A DNA stretch of 64,000 nt from Streptomyces violaceusniger Tu 4113 (GTDB lineage: Bacteria > Actinomycetota > Actinomycetes > Streptomycetales > Streptomycetaceae), in assembly GCF_000147815.2 (NCBI RefSeq), contig NC_015957.1, positions 3,906,001 through 3,970,000 on the forward strand, read 5' to 3'. This document shows, one piece after another, positions 49,139 to 54,413 of this stretch. A program made the translations under genes and the position numbers. Below the pieces are notes generated by a model. That model was not told where the DNA came from. It did not search any database and worked only from the letters and a program-made list of their open reading frames with translations. Numbering within the stretch: position 1 is the stretch's first letter; each line of letters begins with the position of its first letter.

Positions 49139-49999
49139 GGAGTCCCTCACCATCCCCGCCGATCAGCCGCTCACCTTCGACGAGCTGCGCCGATATGTGC
49201 GCCAGGTCGCGGGCACGGACTTCGGGATGCGGGCGCCCCGCTGGCTGTCCCGGTTCGGCAACGCCTCCCGGCAGGCCGCCCGCTGCCGCGACGGCCGCGT
49301 CCTGCTCGCCGGGGACGCGGCGCATATGCATATGCCGATGGGGGGCCAGGGCCTGAGCGTGGGGCTCCAGGACGCCTTCAACCTCGGGTGGAAGCTGGCC
49401 GCGGTGTGCCAGGGCCGCGCCCCCGACGGGCTGCTGGACACCTACCACGCCGAGCGCCACCCCGTGGGGGCCGCGCTGCTGGAGAACACCCGGGCCCAGA
49501 CCGTGCTCGGCGCCACGCACACCGCCGACGTACGCGCCCTGCGCTCGGTGTTCGGCCGGCTTCTGGCCGCCCACCCGGCGGTGAACCGGCAGTTCGCCGG
49601 GGCGCTCTCCGCGCTGGACGTGGCCTACCGCCCGGCGGTGGGGGAGCGGGCGGGGGCCGCGGAGCCGGGAGGGGCCGGGGGCGGTCACTCGCTGGCCGGT
49701 AGCCGCGCCCCCGACCTCGGGCTGGACGGGGCGCCCGAGCCCAGCCTGTATCCGCTGCTGGCCGACGGGCGCTTCGTACTGCTCCACCTCGGCCCGGGCG
49801 GCGACGCGGGGCGTGGGACGGCCGACGGCCCGGGTGCCGCCGACGCCCGCGCCGCCGAGGCGATCACCGGGAGTCCGGACCGGATGCGGACCGTGACCGT
49901 GCGCCGACCACCGTCCATGACGGCTGGGCGCGCCGGAGCACGGTGCTGGTGCGCCCGGACGGCCATGTCGCCTGGGATGCCGCGCTGTCCAGCACGTGA
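49139..49999 (+). pseudogene. C-terminal half of a FAD-dependent monooxygenase, frameshifted
   Basis: The frame at 49140 reads ESLTIPADQPLTFDELRRYV without a start codon and continues with GRVLLAGDAAHMHMPMGGQG (the GD motif of aromatic-ring monooxygenases) and LSVGLQDAFNLGWKLAAV. The N-terminal FAD-binding half (GxGxxG) is missing. Near 49905 there is a one-base slip; the normal end (VHDGWARRSTVLVRPDGHVA) is in the next frame and stops at 49999. The gene is dead: N-terminus deleted, C-terminus frameshifted. Confidence 0.8.
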
Positions 50000-50180
50000 G
50001 ACGAGTTCGGTGGGTCTCGTACGTACCAGCTCACCACGGACGGTTCCGCGCGGCCACCGGGCGCGGAAGGGGGTCCCGGCGACGGCTCGTTGTCCAGTCC
50101 ATGAGAATCGACGCGCGGACCGTTCAGACGCTGGTTAATCTGACGACAGATCCGGTTCAGCCGACACGAGGGAGTGTGCG

Positions 50181-50351
50181 GTGACCCCCGAACAAACACA
50201 GAGCGACGACGCGCGCGCCGATAACAGCGGGCGGTTCGTGCAGGCCACGGAGGTGGGCAGTCTGGAAGTATGGGCGCGTTCCGCGCCGATCCGACTCGCC
50301 GGTTACGAGGACGACCTCGCCGAGCCGCACATTCTCCAGAGCGTGGACTGA
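50181..50351 (+). CDS. Small ORF, 56-residue possible precursor or signalling peptide
   Basis: GTG at 50181 has a good ribosome-binding site (GGGAG, 6 bases upstream). The product is hydrophilic at first (MTPEQTQSDDARADNSGR), then has the patterned C-terminal half FVQATEVGSLEVWARSAPIR and LAGYEDDLAEPHILQSVD. There is no signal peptide or membrane helix. Leader-like Asp/Gln/Ser-rich start, single Trp and Tyr, and an acidic end fit a ribosomal-peptide precursor or regulator-binding peptide, but it matches no family I know. It stands alone, 280 bases before an XRE regulator, HEIGH peptidase and 7-TM protein. Could be a non-coding artefact. Confidence 0.5.
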   Translation: MTPEQTQSDDARADNSGRFVQATEVGSLEVWARSAPIRLAGYEDDLAEPHILQSVD

Positions 50352-50479
50352 TGGCCCGGCGCATGCGCTGAGAGCGGGGGAGGGCACCGGGCCCTCGGCC
50401 GCGGCCGCTGGCAGCAAGCGGACATCGCGGCCGTCGGCCGACCTCCTCCCTCGCCTGATCGATCACCCTCTTGGCCCAG

Positions 50480-50493
50480 CTACCAACTGGTAG
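50480..50493. promoter_or_regulatory. Dyad upstream of the XRE regulator
   Basis: CTACCA-AC-TGGTAG is a perfect 6-2-6 palindrome, about 140 bases upstream of the XRE start, and a candidate autoregulatory site. Confidence 0.45.
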
Positions 50494-50631
50494 TTAAGTC
50501 GGCCGCCCCCACGATTCGGCACCGGACTGGTGTGCTGTGCGATGGACATGGCAAGATGCGTCGCGCGGCATCGTCCGCCTTAACCAACCGTGAGGGTGTT
50601 CGAGCCCGGGAGCAGCCGTGAGGGGGCGCAG

Positions 50632-51159
50632 ATGGCAGCGGGTGCCGACAGGTCACCGGACGCCGCCGACAGCCCGCTGGCGGACCGGCTCAACTACCTG
50701 TTCACCACCATGCACCCGCCGGGCGCGCCGTACACCAACGCCTACGTCGCCGAGGAGATCAGCGGCGGCGAGGAGTACGGCGGGGTGAGCGTGACCGAGC
50801 AGTATCTGTCGATGCTGCGCAACGGCAAGCGCACCAATCCCAGCCCGGATGTGCTGCGGGCGCTCGCCAAGTTCTTCGCCGTGCCCGTCGGTTATCTGCT
50901 GGGCGACCTGTCGCCCTCGCAGGCCGAGCGGGTCGAGGAGGAGGTACGGTTCCTCGTCGCGATGCGCGACAAGCGGGTCCGCAGCATCGCGCTGCGCTCC
51001 GTGGGCCTCCCGCCAGAGGTCCAGGACAGTCTCACCACGATCATCTCCCAGTTCCGGCAGCAGATGAACCTTCCGCCCGAACCTCCCGGTCCGAACGGGG
51101 CCGCGGGAGCGGACGGTTCGGGCGGTCCGGACGGCGAGGCGACGAATGGCAGTCGATGA
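50632..51159 (+). CDS. XRE-family DNA-binding regulator (EspR-like)
   Basis: A 175-residue protein with a helix-turn-helix in residues about 15-85: LADRLNYLFTTMHPPGAPYT, VTEQYLSMLRNGKRTNPSPD, VLRALAKFFAVPVGYLLGD, like EspR of mycobacteria. A short C-terminal helix follows (VRFLVAMRDKRVRSIALRSV) and then a Pro/Gly-rich tail. I chose ATG at 50632, preceded by GAGGGGG; a GTG at 50590 would add 14 residues. It overlaps the start of the HEIGH peptidase gene by 14 bases. Confidence 0.88.
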   Translation: MAAGADRSPDAADSPLADRLNYLFTTMHPPGAPYTNAYVAEEISGGEEYGGVSVTEQYLSMLRNGKRTNPSPDVLRALAKFFAVPVGYLLGDLSPSQAERVEEEVRFLVAMRDKRVRSIALRSVGLPPEVQDSLTTIISQFRQQMNLPPEPPGPNGAAGADGSGGPDGEATNGSR

Positions 51160-51811
51160 CCCGGAACTGTTCTCCTCCTGGCGGCGGACCGGATACGAGG
51201 GTGGTACAGGCATGCGAGTGGGCCGGATGCGGCGGCAGTGCAAGCAGCTCATCAAGGAGCTCGGGCTGCCCGCCTCGACCGACCTGCCCGGTCTGTGCGA
51301 CCTCGTCGCCCGCCGCGTCGGACGCCCCGTCCATCTGGTGCCGATGAGCCTGGGCGGTGTGGTCTCGGGCATGACCGCCTCCACCGACGAGGACTACTGG
51401 ATCTTCTACGAGCTCAGGACGTCCCCCTGGCACCAGATCCATATCGTGCTGCATGAGATCGGCCATCTCCTGCTCGGACACGAGCAGGACCCGGCGGTCA
51501 CCGAGGAAGCGCTGCGGATGTGGACGCCGTCTGTCGATGTGACCACCGCGATGCGCCGGCTGGGGATGACCCCGGACTTCGCCCGCCACCACTGCTACGA
51601 CAACCTCACCGAGCGCGAGACCGAGGTGCTGGGCACGCTGCTGATGGAGCATGTGGTGCCGACCTCGCCGGACCACGGGCTGCCGCTTCAGGGCCGGGCG
51701 GCCGAACTCGCCGCGGCACTCGGCCCGGCGCTGCGCCACGTGCGCACCGACCGCGCGGCCGGCGCCGACGGTGGCGTACGCGGTGAGCCGGGCGGTGACG
51801 CCGGTGTTTGA
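51146..51811 (+). CDS. ImmA/IrrE-type zinc metallopeptidase-like protein
   Basis: A 221-residue protein with the zinc motif HIVLHEIGHLLLGHEQD (HEXXH) at about residues 107-123, and an N-terminal helix-rich region (MRRQCKQLIKELGLPASTDL). ImmA/IrrE proteins cleave or relieve XRE-type repressors; pairing with the XRE gene is characteristic. ATG at 51146 overlaps the XRE stop; an alternative ATG at 51212 would shorten it by 22 residues. The C-terminal tail is Ala/Gly-rich. Confidence 0.85.
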   Translation: MAVDDPELFSSWRRTGYEGGTGMRVGRMRRQCKQLIKELGLPASTDLPGLCDLVARRVGRPVHLVPMSLGGVVSGMTASTDEDYWIFYELRTSPWHQIHIVLHEIGHLLLGHEQDPAVTEEALRMWTPSVDVTTAMRRLGMTPDFARHHCYDNLTERETEVLGTLLMEHVVPTSPDHGLPLQGRAAELAAALGPALRHVRTDRAAGADGGVRGEPGGDAGV

Positions 51812-52988
51812 CCTCGTGTATCTCTGCTTCGGCGCCGCCGCCTGGACGATGGCCGGCTACAAGGCCCGGGCCTGGTTCCGCGACCGCGCCAACGCCGATC
51901 TCGGCCTGGCCTGCGTGATGACCGCGGCCGTGGCGAATGTGTTCCTGCTCTCCGCGCCCAGCGTCTACCGCTGGTTCGACGGCCTGGTGGGCGTCGCCAA
52001 TCTCGCCATGGTCTTCCTCTACTCCTCCGTCGTGGTGTTCGCCACCGGCGCCCTGGTGCTGCTGCTGCGCTGGACGGGGTCGGCGGTGCGGCCCGTCCTG
52101 GTGGTCGCCGCCGTGGCCGTGGCATGGACCGTGGCCATCGTCGGCTTCGCGGTCGGCCGCCCGGACGCGGTCGAGCACCCCCGCGACTTCAGCACCGCCT
52201 ACGCGGACGCCCCAGGAGTGGTCCTCTTCCTGGTGCTGTATCTGGCCATTTTCGGAGCCGGTCTGGCGGGGCTCGGCATCCTCTGCCCGCGCTATGCCGC
52301 CAGCCTGCGCGGCTCATGGCTGGCCCGGGGGCTGCGGGTGCTGGCCGCCGGATGCTGGCTGGGACTGGCGTACTGCGCCTGCAAGCTGATCGGTTTCGTC
52401 TTCTCCTGGGCGGGCCGTGAGCTGTACTGGCTCTCCAACGGGGTCGCCCCGCTGACCGCCTCGGTCGCGGCGCTCCTGGTGCTGGCCGGTTTCGCCATCC
52501 CCGCCGTCGGGCCGCGGGCCTCCGCGTGGCGCCGCTTCCGGCGGCTGCGGCCGCTGTGGCGGGAGGTCACCGCACAGGCCCCCGAGGTGTCCATGGGCCA
52601 CTCCCGCTGGACCGGCTGGTGGCCGTTCGCGGACCTCGAGTGGCGGGCCAACCGTCAGATGGCGGAGATCCGCGACGTACAGCGCGGCGTACGGCGCCAT
52701 GTGGAGGCCACCGTCCTGGAGATCGCGCATGTCAAGGCCGGCGCGGCGCGACTCGACGATTGGCAACTTGCTGCCGTAGTGGAAGCCGCGGCGCTCAGAC
52801 GCGGTTTGCTGAATCAAGCGGCGGGACATGTGCCGGGGTCCGCGGCGGACAGCGTGGTGATGACGACAGGCGCCGAACTGGTGGAGGAGCACGAGCATCT
52901 GGCCCGTGTCGCCGACGTCTATCACCTGCCGCTCGTGGACGAGGTGCTCGCGGAACTGAGGGAGGAGACCGCCGCCCAGCGGCGGTGA
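51783..52988 (+). CDS. DUF6545/MAB_1171c-type 7-TM membrane protein
   Basis: A 401-residue protein with seven hydrophobic segments in the first 250 residues (for example LVYLCFGAAAWTMAGYKAR, GLACVMTAAVANVFLLSAPS and GLRVLAAGCWLGLAYCACKL) and a soluble C-terminal domain (LRPLWREVTAQAPEVSMGHS, then MAEIRDVQRGVRRHVEATVL). The order XRE-HEIGH-this family is conserved in actinomycetes; its function is unknown. Start GTG at 51783 is tentative; GTG 51804 is an alternative. It overlaps the peptidase gene, implying coupled translation. Confidence 0.78.
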   Translation: MSRAVTPVFDLVYLCFGAAAWTMAGYKARAWFRDRANADLGLACVMTAAVANVFLLSAPSVYRWFDGLVGVANLAMVFLYSSVVVFATGALVLLLRWTGSAVRPVLVVAAVAVAWTVAIVGFAVGRPDAVEHPRDFSTAYADAPGVVLFLVLYLAIFGAGLAGLGILCPRYAASLRGSWLARGLRVLAAGCWLGLAYCACKLIGFVFSWAGRELYWLSNGVAPLTASVAALLVLAGFAIPAVGPRASAWRRFRRLRPLWREVTAQAPEVSMGHSRWTGWWPFADLEWRANRQMAEIRDVQRGVRRHVEATVLEIAHVKAGAARLDDWQLAAVVEAAALRRGLLNQAAGHVPGSAADSVVMTTGAELVEEHEHLARVADVYHLPLVDEVLAELREETAAQRR

Positions 52989-53008
52989 ACGGGGGGGATC
53001 ACAGACGA

Positions 53009-53037
53009 GGTGGCCCTGGACGGGGGTCGGGGCCACC
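53009..53037 (+). terminator. Terminator after the 7-TM gene
   Basis: GGTGGCCC (53009-53016) and GGGCCACC (53030-53037) form a perfect 8-bp stem with a 13-base loop, 20 bases past the stop. Confidence 0.55.
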
Positions 53038-53180
53038 CGTGGCACAGGCGGCGCTGGGGGGATTCAGCCCCGGCGCCGCCTCCCGGCCACCACCACGCGC
53101 ATCCGTGCGCATCGTCCGGACGGGCCGAAACGCCCCACCCGGTCAGGCCCGGAGGACGCCACCGCCTAGAGTCGGGATCC

Positions 53181-54413
53181 ATGCAGAACACCGCGCACGC
53201 CGCCGGAACGGACGGCCCGGAGCTCGTTGACACCGCCCCGATGATCGAGGACCTCTACCCGGCCCTGGCCACGCTCCGCGAGGCCGGCCCGGTCCATCGG
53301 ATCGCCGGCACCGACGGACGACCCGCCTGGCTGGTGACCCGTTACGAGGATGTGCGGCGGCTGCTCGCCGATCCGCGCCTGGCCCTGGACAAGCGCCACG
53401 CCGCCCCGGGCAACTACAGCGGCTTCTCCCTGCCGCCCGCCCTCGACGCCAATCTGCTCAACATGGACCCGCCGGACCACACCCGGGTGCGCCGGCTGGT
53501 GGTCAAGGCGTTCACCCCCGGCCGCGTGCAGCGGATGCGCGAACCGGTCCGGCGGATCGCCGATGAGCTGCTCGACGCCGTCGAGTCCGAGGGCCGCGCG
53601 GACCTGCTCGCCGCCTACGCCGGACAGCTCCCCATCATCGTCATCTGCGATCTGCTCGGCGTCCCGCAGCGCGACCAGCGCGACTTCCGGGCCTGGAGCG
53701 ACGCCCTGATCACCCCCGATCCGGCGCGGCCGCGGGCGGCGAAGGAAGCGGTCGGCAGCATGCTCCGCTTCTACACCGAGCTGATCGCGAAGAAGCGCGC
53801 CGAGCCCGGGGACGATCTGCTCTCGGATCTGATCCGGGTCCGCGACGACGAAGCCGGGGACGGCGACGGCAGGCTCACCGAGGACGAACTGACCTCGCTC
53901 GCCTTCCTCATCCTCCTCGCGGGCTACGAGAACACCGTCCACCTCATCGCCAACTCGGTGCTCACCCTGCTCGACCACCCCACGGTCCTCCTCCAGGAGC
54001 TGCGCGCGGAACCGGGCGGTCTTACGGCCGCCTTCGACGAACTGGCGCGGTACGAGGGCCCGGCGTCGCTGGGGATCCGCCGCTTCCCGCTCGAGGAGAT
54101 CGAGATCGGCGGTGTGACCATCCCCGCCGGGGAGACCGTGCTGCTCTCGGTGGCCTCGGCACACCGTGACCCGGCCCAGTTCAAGGATCCGGACGACTTC
54201 AATCCACATCTTGGCCGGTCCGGTCACCTTGCGCTCGGCCATGGCATCCACTACTGCCTCGGCGCGCCCCTGGCCCGGATGGAGATGGAAATCGCTCTGG
54301 CCGCGCTGGTTCGGCGTTTTCCGGGGCTGCGGCTGGATGTCCCGAGGGAGGAGCTCCGATGGCGGCCGTCGATCCGCGCGCGTGGCCTGATCTCGCTGCC
54401 CGTCGCATGGTGA
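53181..54413 (+). CDS. Cytochrome P450
   Basis: A 410-residue soluble P450. The I-helix reads LLAGYENTVHLIAN (AGx-E-T type), the K-helix ExxR is in ELARYE, and the heme loop is LGHGIHYCLGAPLARMEME with the Cys ligand. It is similar in size to CYP105/107-type enzymes that oxidise natural products. No ferredoxin or synthase is adjacent. It follows the XRE-HEIGH-7-TM group after a terminator, so it may be independent. ATG at 53181 has only a weak GGGAT. Confidence 0.93.
   Translation: MQNTAHAAGTDGPELVDTAPMIEDLYPALATLREAGPVHRIAGTDGRPAWLVTRYEDVRRLLADPRLALDKRHAAPGNYSGFSLPPALDANLLNMDPPDHTRVRRLVVKAFTPGRVQRMREPVRRIADELLDAVESEGRADLLAAYAGQLPIIVICDLLGVPQRDQRDFRAWSDALITPDPARPRAAKEAVGSMLRFYTELIAKKRAEPGDDLLSDLIRVRDDEAGDGDGRLTEDELTSLAFLILLAGYENTVHLIANSVLTLLDHPTVLLQELRAEPGGLTAAFDELARYEGPASLGIRRFPLEEIEIGGVTIPAGETVLLSVASAHRDPAQFKDPDDFNPHLGRSGHLALGHGIHYCLGAPLARMEMEIALAALVRRFPGLRLDVPREELRWRPSIRARGLISLPVAW

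Follow-up and report, generated by a model that had tools for sequence, protein, structure and literature searches.

Small pleiotropic regulators of the AfsS type are known in Streptomyces, and the ImmR and ImmA proteins of ICEBs1 are an XRE-ImmA/IrrE pair. In this study, we analyzed a stretch of 64,000 nucleotides from Streptomyces violaceusniger Tu 4113 (NC_015957.1, positions 3,906,001 to 3,970,000; hereafter, the window) and focused on a 56-codon open reading frame (ORF) that lies upstream of genes for an XRE-type regulator, an ImmA/IrrE-like protein, a DUF6545 membrane protein, and a cytochrome P450. We describe the conservation of this small gene, a three-hairpin leader RNA that precedes it in most relatives, and divergent paralogues that share its C-terminal tail. 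Proteins of many Streptomyces biosynthetic clusters that are needed for cluster expression include OvmZ, which has no known domain, OvmW, a small protein with a helix-turn-helix (HTH), and Aur1O (PMC8910723, PMC11264864).

As far as the excerpts of these reports describe them, OvmZ resembles the present family in lacking a known domain, and OvmZ-like genes were found near some of the paralogues, whereas OvmW differs in its HTH, neither an HTH nor another domain being recognized in the present family. In the same excerpts, OvmZ, OvmW, and Aur1O are proteins of clusters, while the best-conserved member of the present family lies outside clusters. The likeness to AfsS-type regulators is one of analogy only, in that a small protein encoded on the chromosome is proposed to influence secondary metabolism. 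The leader resembles the riboswitches and structured leaders of Rfam in being a conserved multi-hairpin 5′ leader just before a ribosome-binding site (RBS), and differs from them in that no Rfam 15 match was obtained at the gathering score in six leader loci. The XRE and ImmA-like genes next to the small ORF share the layout of ImmR/ImmA-type pairs, but the small ORF is unlinked to them.

Results

A search of 5.8 billion proteins yielded 1,048 homologues of the small ORF at E ≤ 0.01, and its RBS, GGGAG, was conserved in the loci of relatives. All named homologues among the 120 matches listed were hypothetical or uncharacterized proteins, and the closest named relatives among them were those of S. 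hygroscopicus, S. malaysiensis, S. endocoffeicus, and S. iranensis, so that the clade of the window is most likely that of S. violaceusniger. The last 33 residues of the protein were nearly invariant, and the N-terminal part was variable. The ratios of nonsynonymous to synonymous substitution rates (dN/dS) for the last 33 codons were 0.019, 0.128, and 0.200 in the window's clade (14 unique sequences), the other loci of the genus (43 unique sequences), and a second genus (21 unique sequences), respectively. The second genus (g7) was read as Actinacidiphila from the names of close matches. The dN/dS of the N-terminal part was 0.56–0.75 across the groups, with 0.56 in the window's clade, and the entropies at the three codon positions were 0.31, 0.19, and 0.91 (115 unique sequences). 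The small ORF is a real, selected gene. The preliminary description of this locus had singled it out from its sequence and RBS and had proposed to look for conservation of its C-terminal half and RBS, both of which were found. The outcomes that it had named as refuting, namely lack of the ORF at homologous loci of related strains or of purifying selection on its frame, did not refute the gene.

By profile search, the family was present in 169 of the 297 genomes of the bacterial family, covering 5 of 17 genera, two of them through weak matches only. Eleven of the 396 genomes of the phylum were positive, all from the window's genus. Neither a Pfam nor an NCBIfam family matched the small ORF, and its alignment matched no PDB chain. 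When the paralogues were included, Pfam and NCBIfam gave no domain, including no HTH, and a single Pfam match was at chance level. The structure model of the protein was of low confidence (mean pLDDT, 63; pTM, 0.23) with one short helix. The tail strings were not found in the literature text that was searched for them, and the family was not named there.

Several other identities were considered for the small ORF. A phage origin was rejected, since phages gave no match and no PHROG was assigned to the ORF; one of 37 relatives gave a weak PHROG match (E = 0.06). For a type I toxin, the hydrophobic stretch was not seen by eye. A role as the leader peptide of an operon was rejected because the gene downstream of the small ORF was not conserved. 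The sequence GACAC ahead of the RBS presumably resembles the WhiA motif.

A long non-coding stretch upstream of the small ORF was conserved between both genera. In most relatives from Streptomyces and Actinacidiphila, it contained a leader of approximately 110 nt with three hairpins, designated P1 (GGACGG..CCGUCC with an inner GGG..CCC), P2 (GGGA..GCC..GGC..UCCC), and P3 (CGGCGC-CACC-GCGnCCG). The leader was trimmed and aligned, its structure was assigned by hand and then modeled from 15 training rows, and the tests were made afterwards. Only leaders carrying an exact copy of the GGCGCCACCGCG box, which 88 of 113 loci had, entered the sets A3 and A4, and this box is invariant in them because the leaders were chosen for it; the model searches of 120 loci are free of that limit. 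These 120 orthologue loci (L031–L150) consisted of 80 named loci, which were those most like the window (the best 80 of at least 578), and 40 other loci. The model matched 65 of the 80 and 35 of the 40, giving 100 of 120, among which were the 15 training rows. Five matches were weak, with E values of 0.001–0.008 (L038, L050, L085, L108, and L121). The loci that were not matched were all 14 of the window's clade (L071–L084) and L039, L047, L048, L061, L062, and L067. The window itself gave no credible match with filters off, the best score being 10.7 bits on the other strand.

In the 65 rows matched by the model, 19 of 27 pairs were changed on both sides. Double-change cells numbered 81, compared to 28.5 ± 3.9 after shuffling (0 of 500 shuffles were as high), and 86.4% of the cells were paired, compared to 33–56% when the structure was slid. 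RNAalifold predicted 12 pairs for untrimmed leaders, mostly long-range pairing, and 13 pairs for the fitted rows, which corresponded to parts of P1b, P2, and P3 and did not include the outer P1. A search of 150 genomes gave 53 leader matches in 52 genomes, and all 53 were located upstream of the small ORF on the same strand, with the 3′ end of the RNA 194–303 nt before the end of the ORF. No match occurred in those of the 150 genomes where the small ORF was not found. Among 59 paralogue and plasmid regions, the model matched three, all beside orthologue-like copies. When the window region and two leaders were scanned permissively against Rfam, a single weak guanidine-II match was obtained, and it lay within the ORF of L102. 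The three-hairpin element is a newly recognized orphan RNA leader tied to one gene.

Over the same 65 rows, ACC was found in the loops of P1b and P2 in 51 and 48 rows, respectively, and CACC in that of P3 in 63 rows. CACCGCG in P3 is the complement of the CGCGGUG located at the start codon, and both sides were present in 96 of the 105 loci outside the window's clade. Covariation supporting sequestration of the start codon by CACCGCG was not found; in one of the nine exceptions, L049, the start was probably misassigned. Separately, an inverted repeat, GAGCG-N4-8-CGCTC, was observed upstream of the small ORF in 83 of the 120 loci and in 10 of 563 control windows, the repeat having been chosen after the sequences were seen. 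It is a possible regulator site.

Weak extra matches of the profile were traced to divergent paralogues, small proteins sharing the tail PPLRLAGxDEDDxxEPHIVRGID followed directly by the stop codon. A profile built only from eight paralogues recovered the window ORF (E = 3.6e-4) and matched 165 of 246 genomes of the genus, orthologues included. The similarity of the tails thus held in both directions, and hhalign aligned the orthologue and paralogue profiles over 22 columns with a probability of 97.6. The 120 orthologue sequences followed to the stop codon came from the window and 119 of the 120 loci, the remaining locus being left without an assigned start. All of them ended in aspartate, as did all 23 relatives (10 and 13) that were detected by profile and followed to the stop. 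The 34 unique paralogue tails provide no evidence for the final aspartate because the search pattern required it. When the tail pattern was applied to 24,615 open frames of 40 codons or more in the 120 orthologue loci, 120 frames fitted, as expected if each locus yields its orthologue once; these were not inspected singly. Judged by these alignments, the small ORF appears to be the chromosomal member of a small-protein family, previously undescribed, whose hallmark is an EPHI-x-x-x-D tail. In G597:C1 and G726:C1, paralogue matches of equal score were located close to each of the chromosome ends and may belong to terminal inverted repeats.

The genes accompanying the paralogues were examined in 38 genomic regions, from which the orthologue-like L222 and L223 were excluded and in which the orthologue-like L297 and L301, which have the leader, were included. 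KSa with CLF, methionine-cycle genes, and KASIII were found in 7, 7, and 8 regions, respectively, and at least one of the three in 20 of 38, compared to none of the 120 orthologue regions. With a wider marker set, the counts were 19 of 38 and 3 of 120. On plasmids, 17 Streptomyces records matched one paralogue, 16 of which were fetched and 15 were annotated. In the annotated records, the gene directly upstream of the paralogue was metF in nine, ahcY in two, a condensation-domain gene in two, metK in one, and a PPTase gene in one, and a DUF6059 gene followed directly in six. Some of these stretches contained phenazine, mevalonate, ScbR-type, or type II polyketide synthase (PKS) genes. OvmZ-like genes were located near 2 of the 38 genomic and 5 of the 16 plasmid paralogues. 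No maturation enzyme was found as a conserved neighbor of the orthologue in the 120 loci. The suggestion of a system like those of ribosomally synthesized and post-translationally modified peptides therefore finds no conserved enzyme beside the orthologue, and its link to secondary metabolism reappears through the divergent paralogues in clusters. Two further observations concern single arrangements: the order metF, small protein, DAHP synthase recurred near replication or ParA-type genes on plasmids L226, L227, L236, L237, and L238, and a PqqD-family gene followed one paralogue (L230:7959-8657).

The features of the window are listed in Table 1. The distance of about 280 nt between the small ORF and the XRE gene given in the preliminary description was correct, because the XRE start is probably the ATG at 50632, an in-frame GTG lying at 50590. 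Overlaps of 14 nt (XRE/ImmA-like) and 41 nt (ImmA-like/DUF6545), followed by the P450 gene, were also as described and fit coupling. The assignment of an ImmA/IrrE-type peptidase held for the HExxH motif, present as HEIGH, and not for the Peptidase_M78 match, which was below the cut-off (17.3 compared to 22 bits). The DUF6545 assignment was borne out by PF20182 (86.7 bits) and by the NCBIfam MAB_1171c family (151.5 bits); the hydropathy scan gave six clear segments, so that the proposed seven-transmembrane topology is plausible, not shown. Knockout of MAB_1171c gave approximately 50% less biofilm according to an excerpt of the original report (PMC8707978). The palindrome CTACCAACTGGTAG is perfect in the window, as noted before, and lies downstream of the small ORF, ahead of the XRE gene, not in the leader region of the ORF. 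Of 11 aligned loci, seven had an exact copy, L073 and L076 had a changed one, and L082 and L083 had none. A conserved operator was therefore rejected, and the perfect copy is a local form.

Table 1. Positions of the small gene, its elements, and its neighbors in the window
Feature	Start	End	Strand	Basis or remark
Small ORF, 56 codons and stop, GTG start	50181	50351	+	ORF list, homologues, dN/dS
Conserved C-terminal part, last 33 codons of the small ORF	50250	50348	+	Alignment, dN/dS, tail reading
RBS of the small ORF, GGGAG	50170	50174	+	Read from the sequence; kept in loci of relatives
TAATCT, possible -10 element of the small ORF (inferred)	50136	50141	+	Followed by the three-hairpin leader in most relatives; no such leader in the window
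Palindrome CTACCAACTGGTAG	50480	50493	.	Between the small ORF and the XRE gene; neighbor, not in the small gene
XRE-type regulator gene	50632	51159	+	Neighbor, judged outside the system
ImmA/IrrE-like gene with HEIGH	51146	51811	+	Neighbor
DUF6545/MAB_1171c-family membrane protein gene	51771	52988	+	Neighbor; start read as GTG 51771
Cytochrome P450 gene	53181	54413	+	Neighbor; start read as ATG 53181; 110.4 bits

Membership of the small ORF in the XRE-HEIGH-seven-transmembrane group, and a conserved small ORF upstream of such groups, for which the preliminary description had proposed a test, were not supported. The XRE start was within 500 nt of the small-ORF start in 10 of the 80 named loci, all closest relatives (L071–L078, L082, and L083). 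It was 4 kb away in another locus and, as a partial match, 10 kb away in one more. A gene resembling an SDR gene that lies upstream in other strains was present in 62 of the 80. Among the 40 further loci, an XRE gene like that of the window was not grouped with any other locus. An orthologous DUF6545 gene was found in 13 of 101 genomes of the genus. The small ORF was absent from 4 of the other 12 genomes with this gene; in the remaining eight, it adjoined the block in one (G622), was on another contig in one, and in six was separated from the DUF6545 gene by approximately 6, 15, 34, 50, 57, and 60 kb. In 11 loci fetched from the 12 genomes (L186–L196), the ImmA-like, DUF6545, and P450 genes were present in all 11 and the XRE gene in 10, and the region upstream of the XRE gene carried conserved elements of its own in the majority of the 10 loci compared. 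The small ORF is independent of the XRE-HEIGH-DUF6545-P450 block, and the genes of the block look like chance neighbors, because the block keeps together without the ORF and adjacency is seen in 10 of the 80 named loci.

The XRE, HEIGH, DUF6545, and P450 genes (window 50632–54413; L186–L196) constitute a conserved four-gene block on their own, for which a narrow literature query combining all its terms gave nothing. In the same genome, two more DUF6545 genes were located near XRE and ImmA-like genes (L171, G000:C3:3419500-3426500; L172, G000:C1:85000-92500). On the other side of the small gene, the ORF at window 49197–50138 matched FAD-binding monooxygenases over their end alone (PF01494 positions 254–349 of 349) and is probably a truncated gene.

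Discussion

We favor the reading that the small gene encodes a regulatory or adaptor protein that acts through its C-terminal tail and is tied to secondary metabolism, and we hold it with about even confidence. The leader, found solely ahead of the small ORF, would most likely set the expression of the ORF in cis, and the window's clade has lost the leader and kept the protein. Once translated, the protein may be cytoplasmic and largely unstructured alone, and its tail, including the terminal aspartate, would bind a partner tied to secondary metabolism and thereby might affect metabolite output. That the tail docks on something encoded elsewhere is suggested by its fixed position at the carboxyl end, the small size of the protein, and the absence of a conserved partner gene, and the tie to secondary metabolism is suggested by the genes that accompany the paralogues. 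The divergent paralogues may do a similar job from within individual biosynthetic clusters. An extension of this reading, in which the riboregulated (in most species) chromosomal gene and the cluster-borne paralogues share a C-terminal peptide code, the ...EPHIxxxD tail being recognized by a single receptor or enzyme common to all, at which the copies compete or cooperate, appears rather unlikely.

Several results weigh against this reading. The 65 rows used for covariation had been fitted to the leader model; in the 15 hand-structured rows, seven double-change pairs were obtained compared to 4.1 ± 1.4, with 23 of 500 shuffles as high, and the pair types were not above those of shuffles. Pairing of P3 with the start codon was broken on one side in 9 of the 105 loci outside the clade with no compensation, and ViennaRNA gave mean probabilities of 0.13 for P3 and 0.17 for the start-codon pairing (88 leaders). 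A low-confidence fold is no proof of disorder. With regard to secondary metabolism, the orthologue itself lies outside clusters by the three markers, and 18 of the 38 paralogue regions contained none of them. The markers were picked after the paralogue neighbors had been seen, the controls were orthologue regions rather than random ones, and the count of 16 of 16 plasmids is circular because the markers were taken from the fetched loci.

A fixed C-terminal part extending up to the stop behind a variable N-terminal part would also be expected of a signal peptide, with the tail released by cleavage and perceived intracellularly or extracellularly by a receptor common to the genus. RRNPP and Phr peptides are comparable released signals, and some cluster paralogues adjoin ScbR-type and SARP regulators. 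However, no export signal or protease site was seen, although no search aimed at them was made, and a receptor gene was not among the conserved neighbors of the orthologue; we consider this explanation unlikely. The location of paralogues in biosynthetic clusters, with one beside the PqqD-family gene and two directly after a condensation-domain gene, could instead point to a precursor or scaffold peptide, the tail of which would serve enzymes encoded in the cluster or at another locus, either by being modified or as a substrate carrier. Since a maturation enzyme is not conserved beside the orthologue and the cluster types around the paralogues differ, this possibility is quite improbable.

The recurring ACC and CACC loops and the single leader copy in nearly all genomes are consistent with a dual-function transcript, in which the (C)ACC loops would give the leader an additional trans-acting role and the ORF would be a second product. 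This is very doubtful, given that a leader without the ORF was never found in the 150 genomes and that the protein is retained where the leader is lost. As for the idea that the adjacent XRE-HEIGH-seven-transmembrane group receives the peptide as its signal, the adjacency in the window's clade speaks for it, but the two are unlinked in other genomes, the ORF is missing from one third of the 12 further genomes carrying the block, and the region upstream of the XRE gene is conserved separately, making it highly improbable.

The role of the leader is directly testable because the window's clade is a natural deletion of the leader. For a gene present in 169 of 297 family genomes, with a nearly invariant tail, the databases and literature searched yielded neither a domain nor an informative name nor a paper. 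Type II PKS, methionine-cycle, and mevalonate genes are found repeatedly next to its paralogues, both on chromosomes and on plasmids. Should a shared partner be the docking site of the tail, the family would offer a new handle on the timing of antibiotic production in Streptomyces and a simple marker of biosynthetic clusters.

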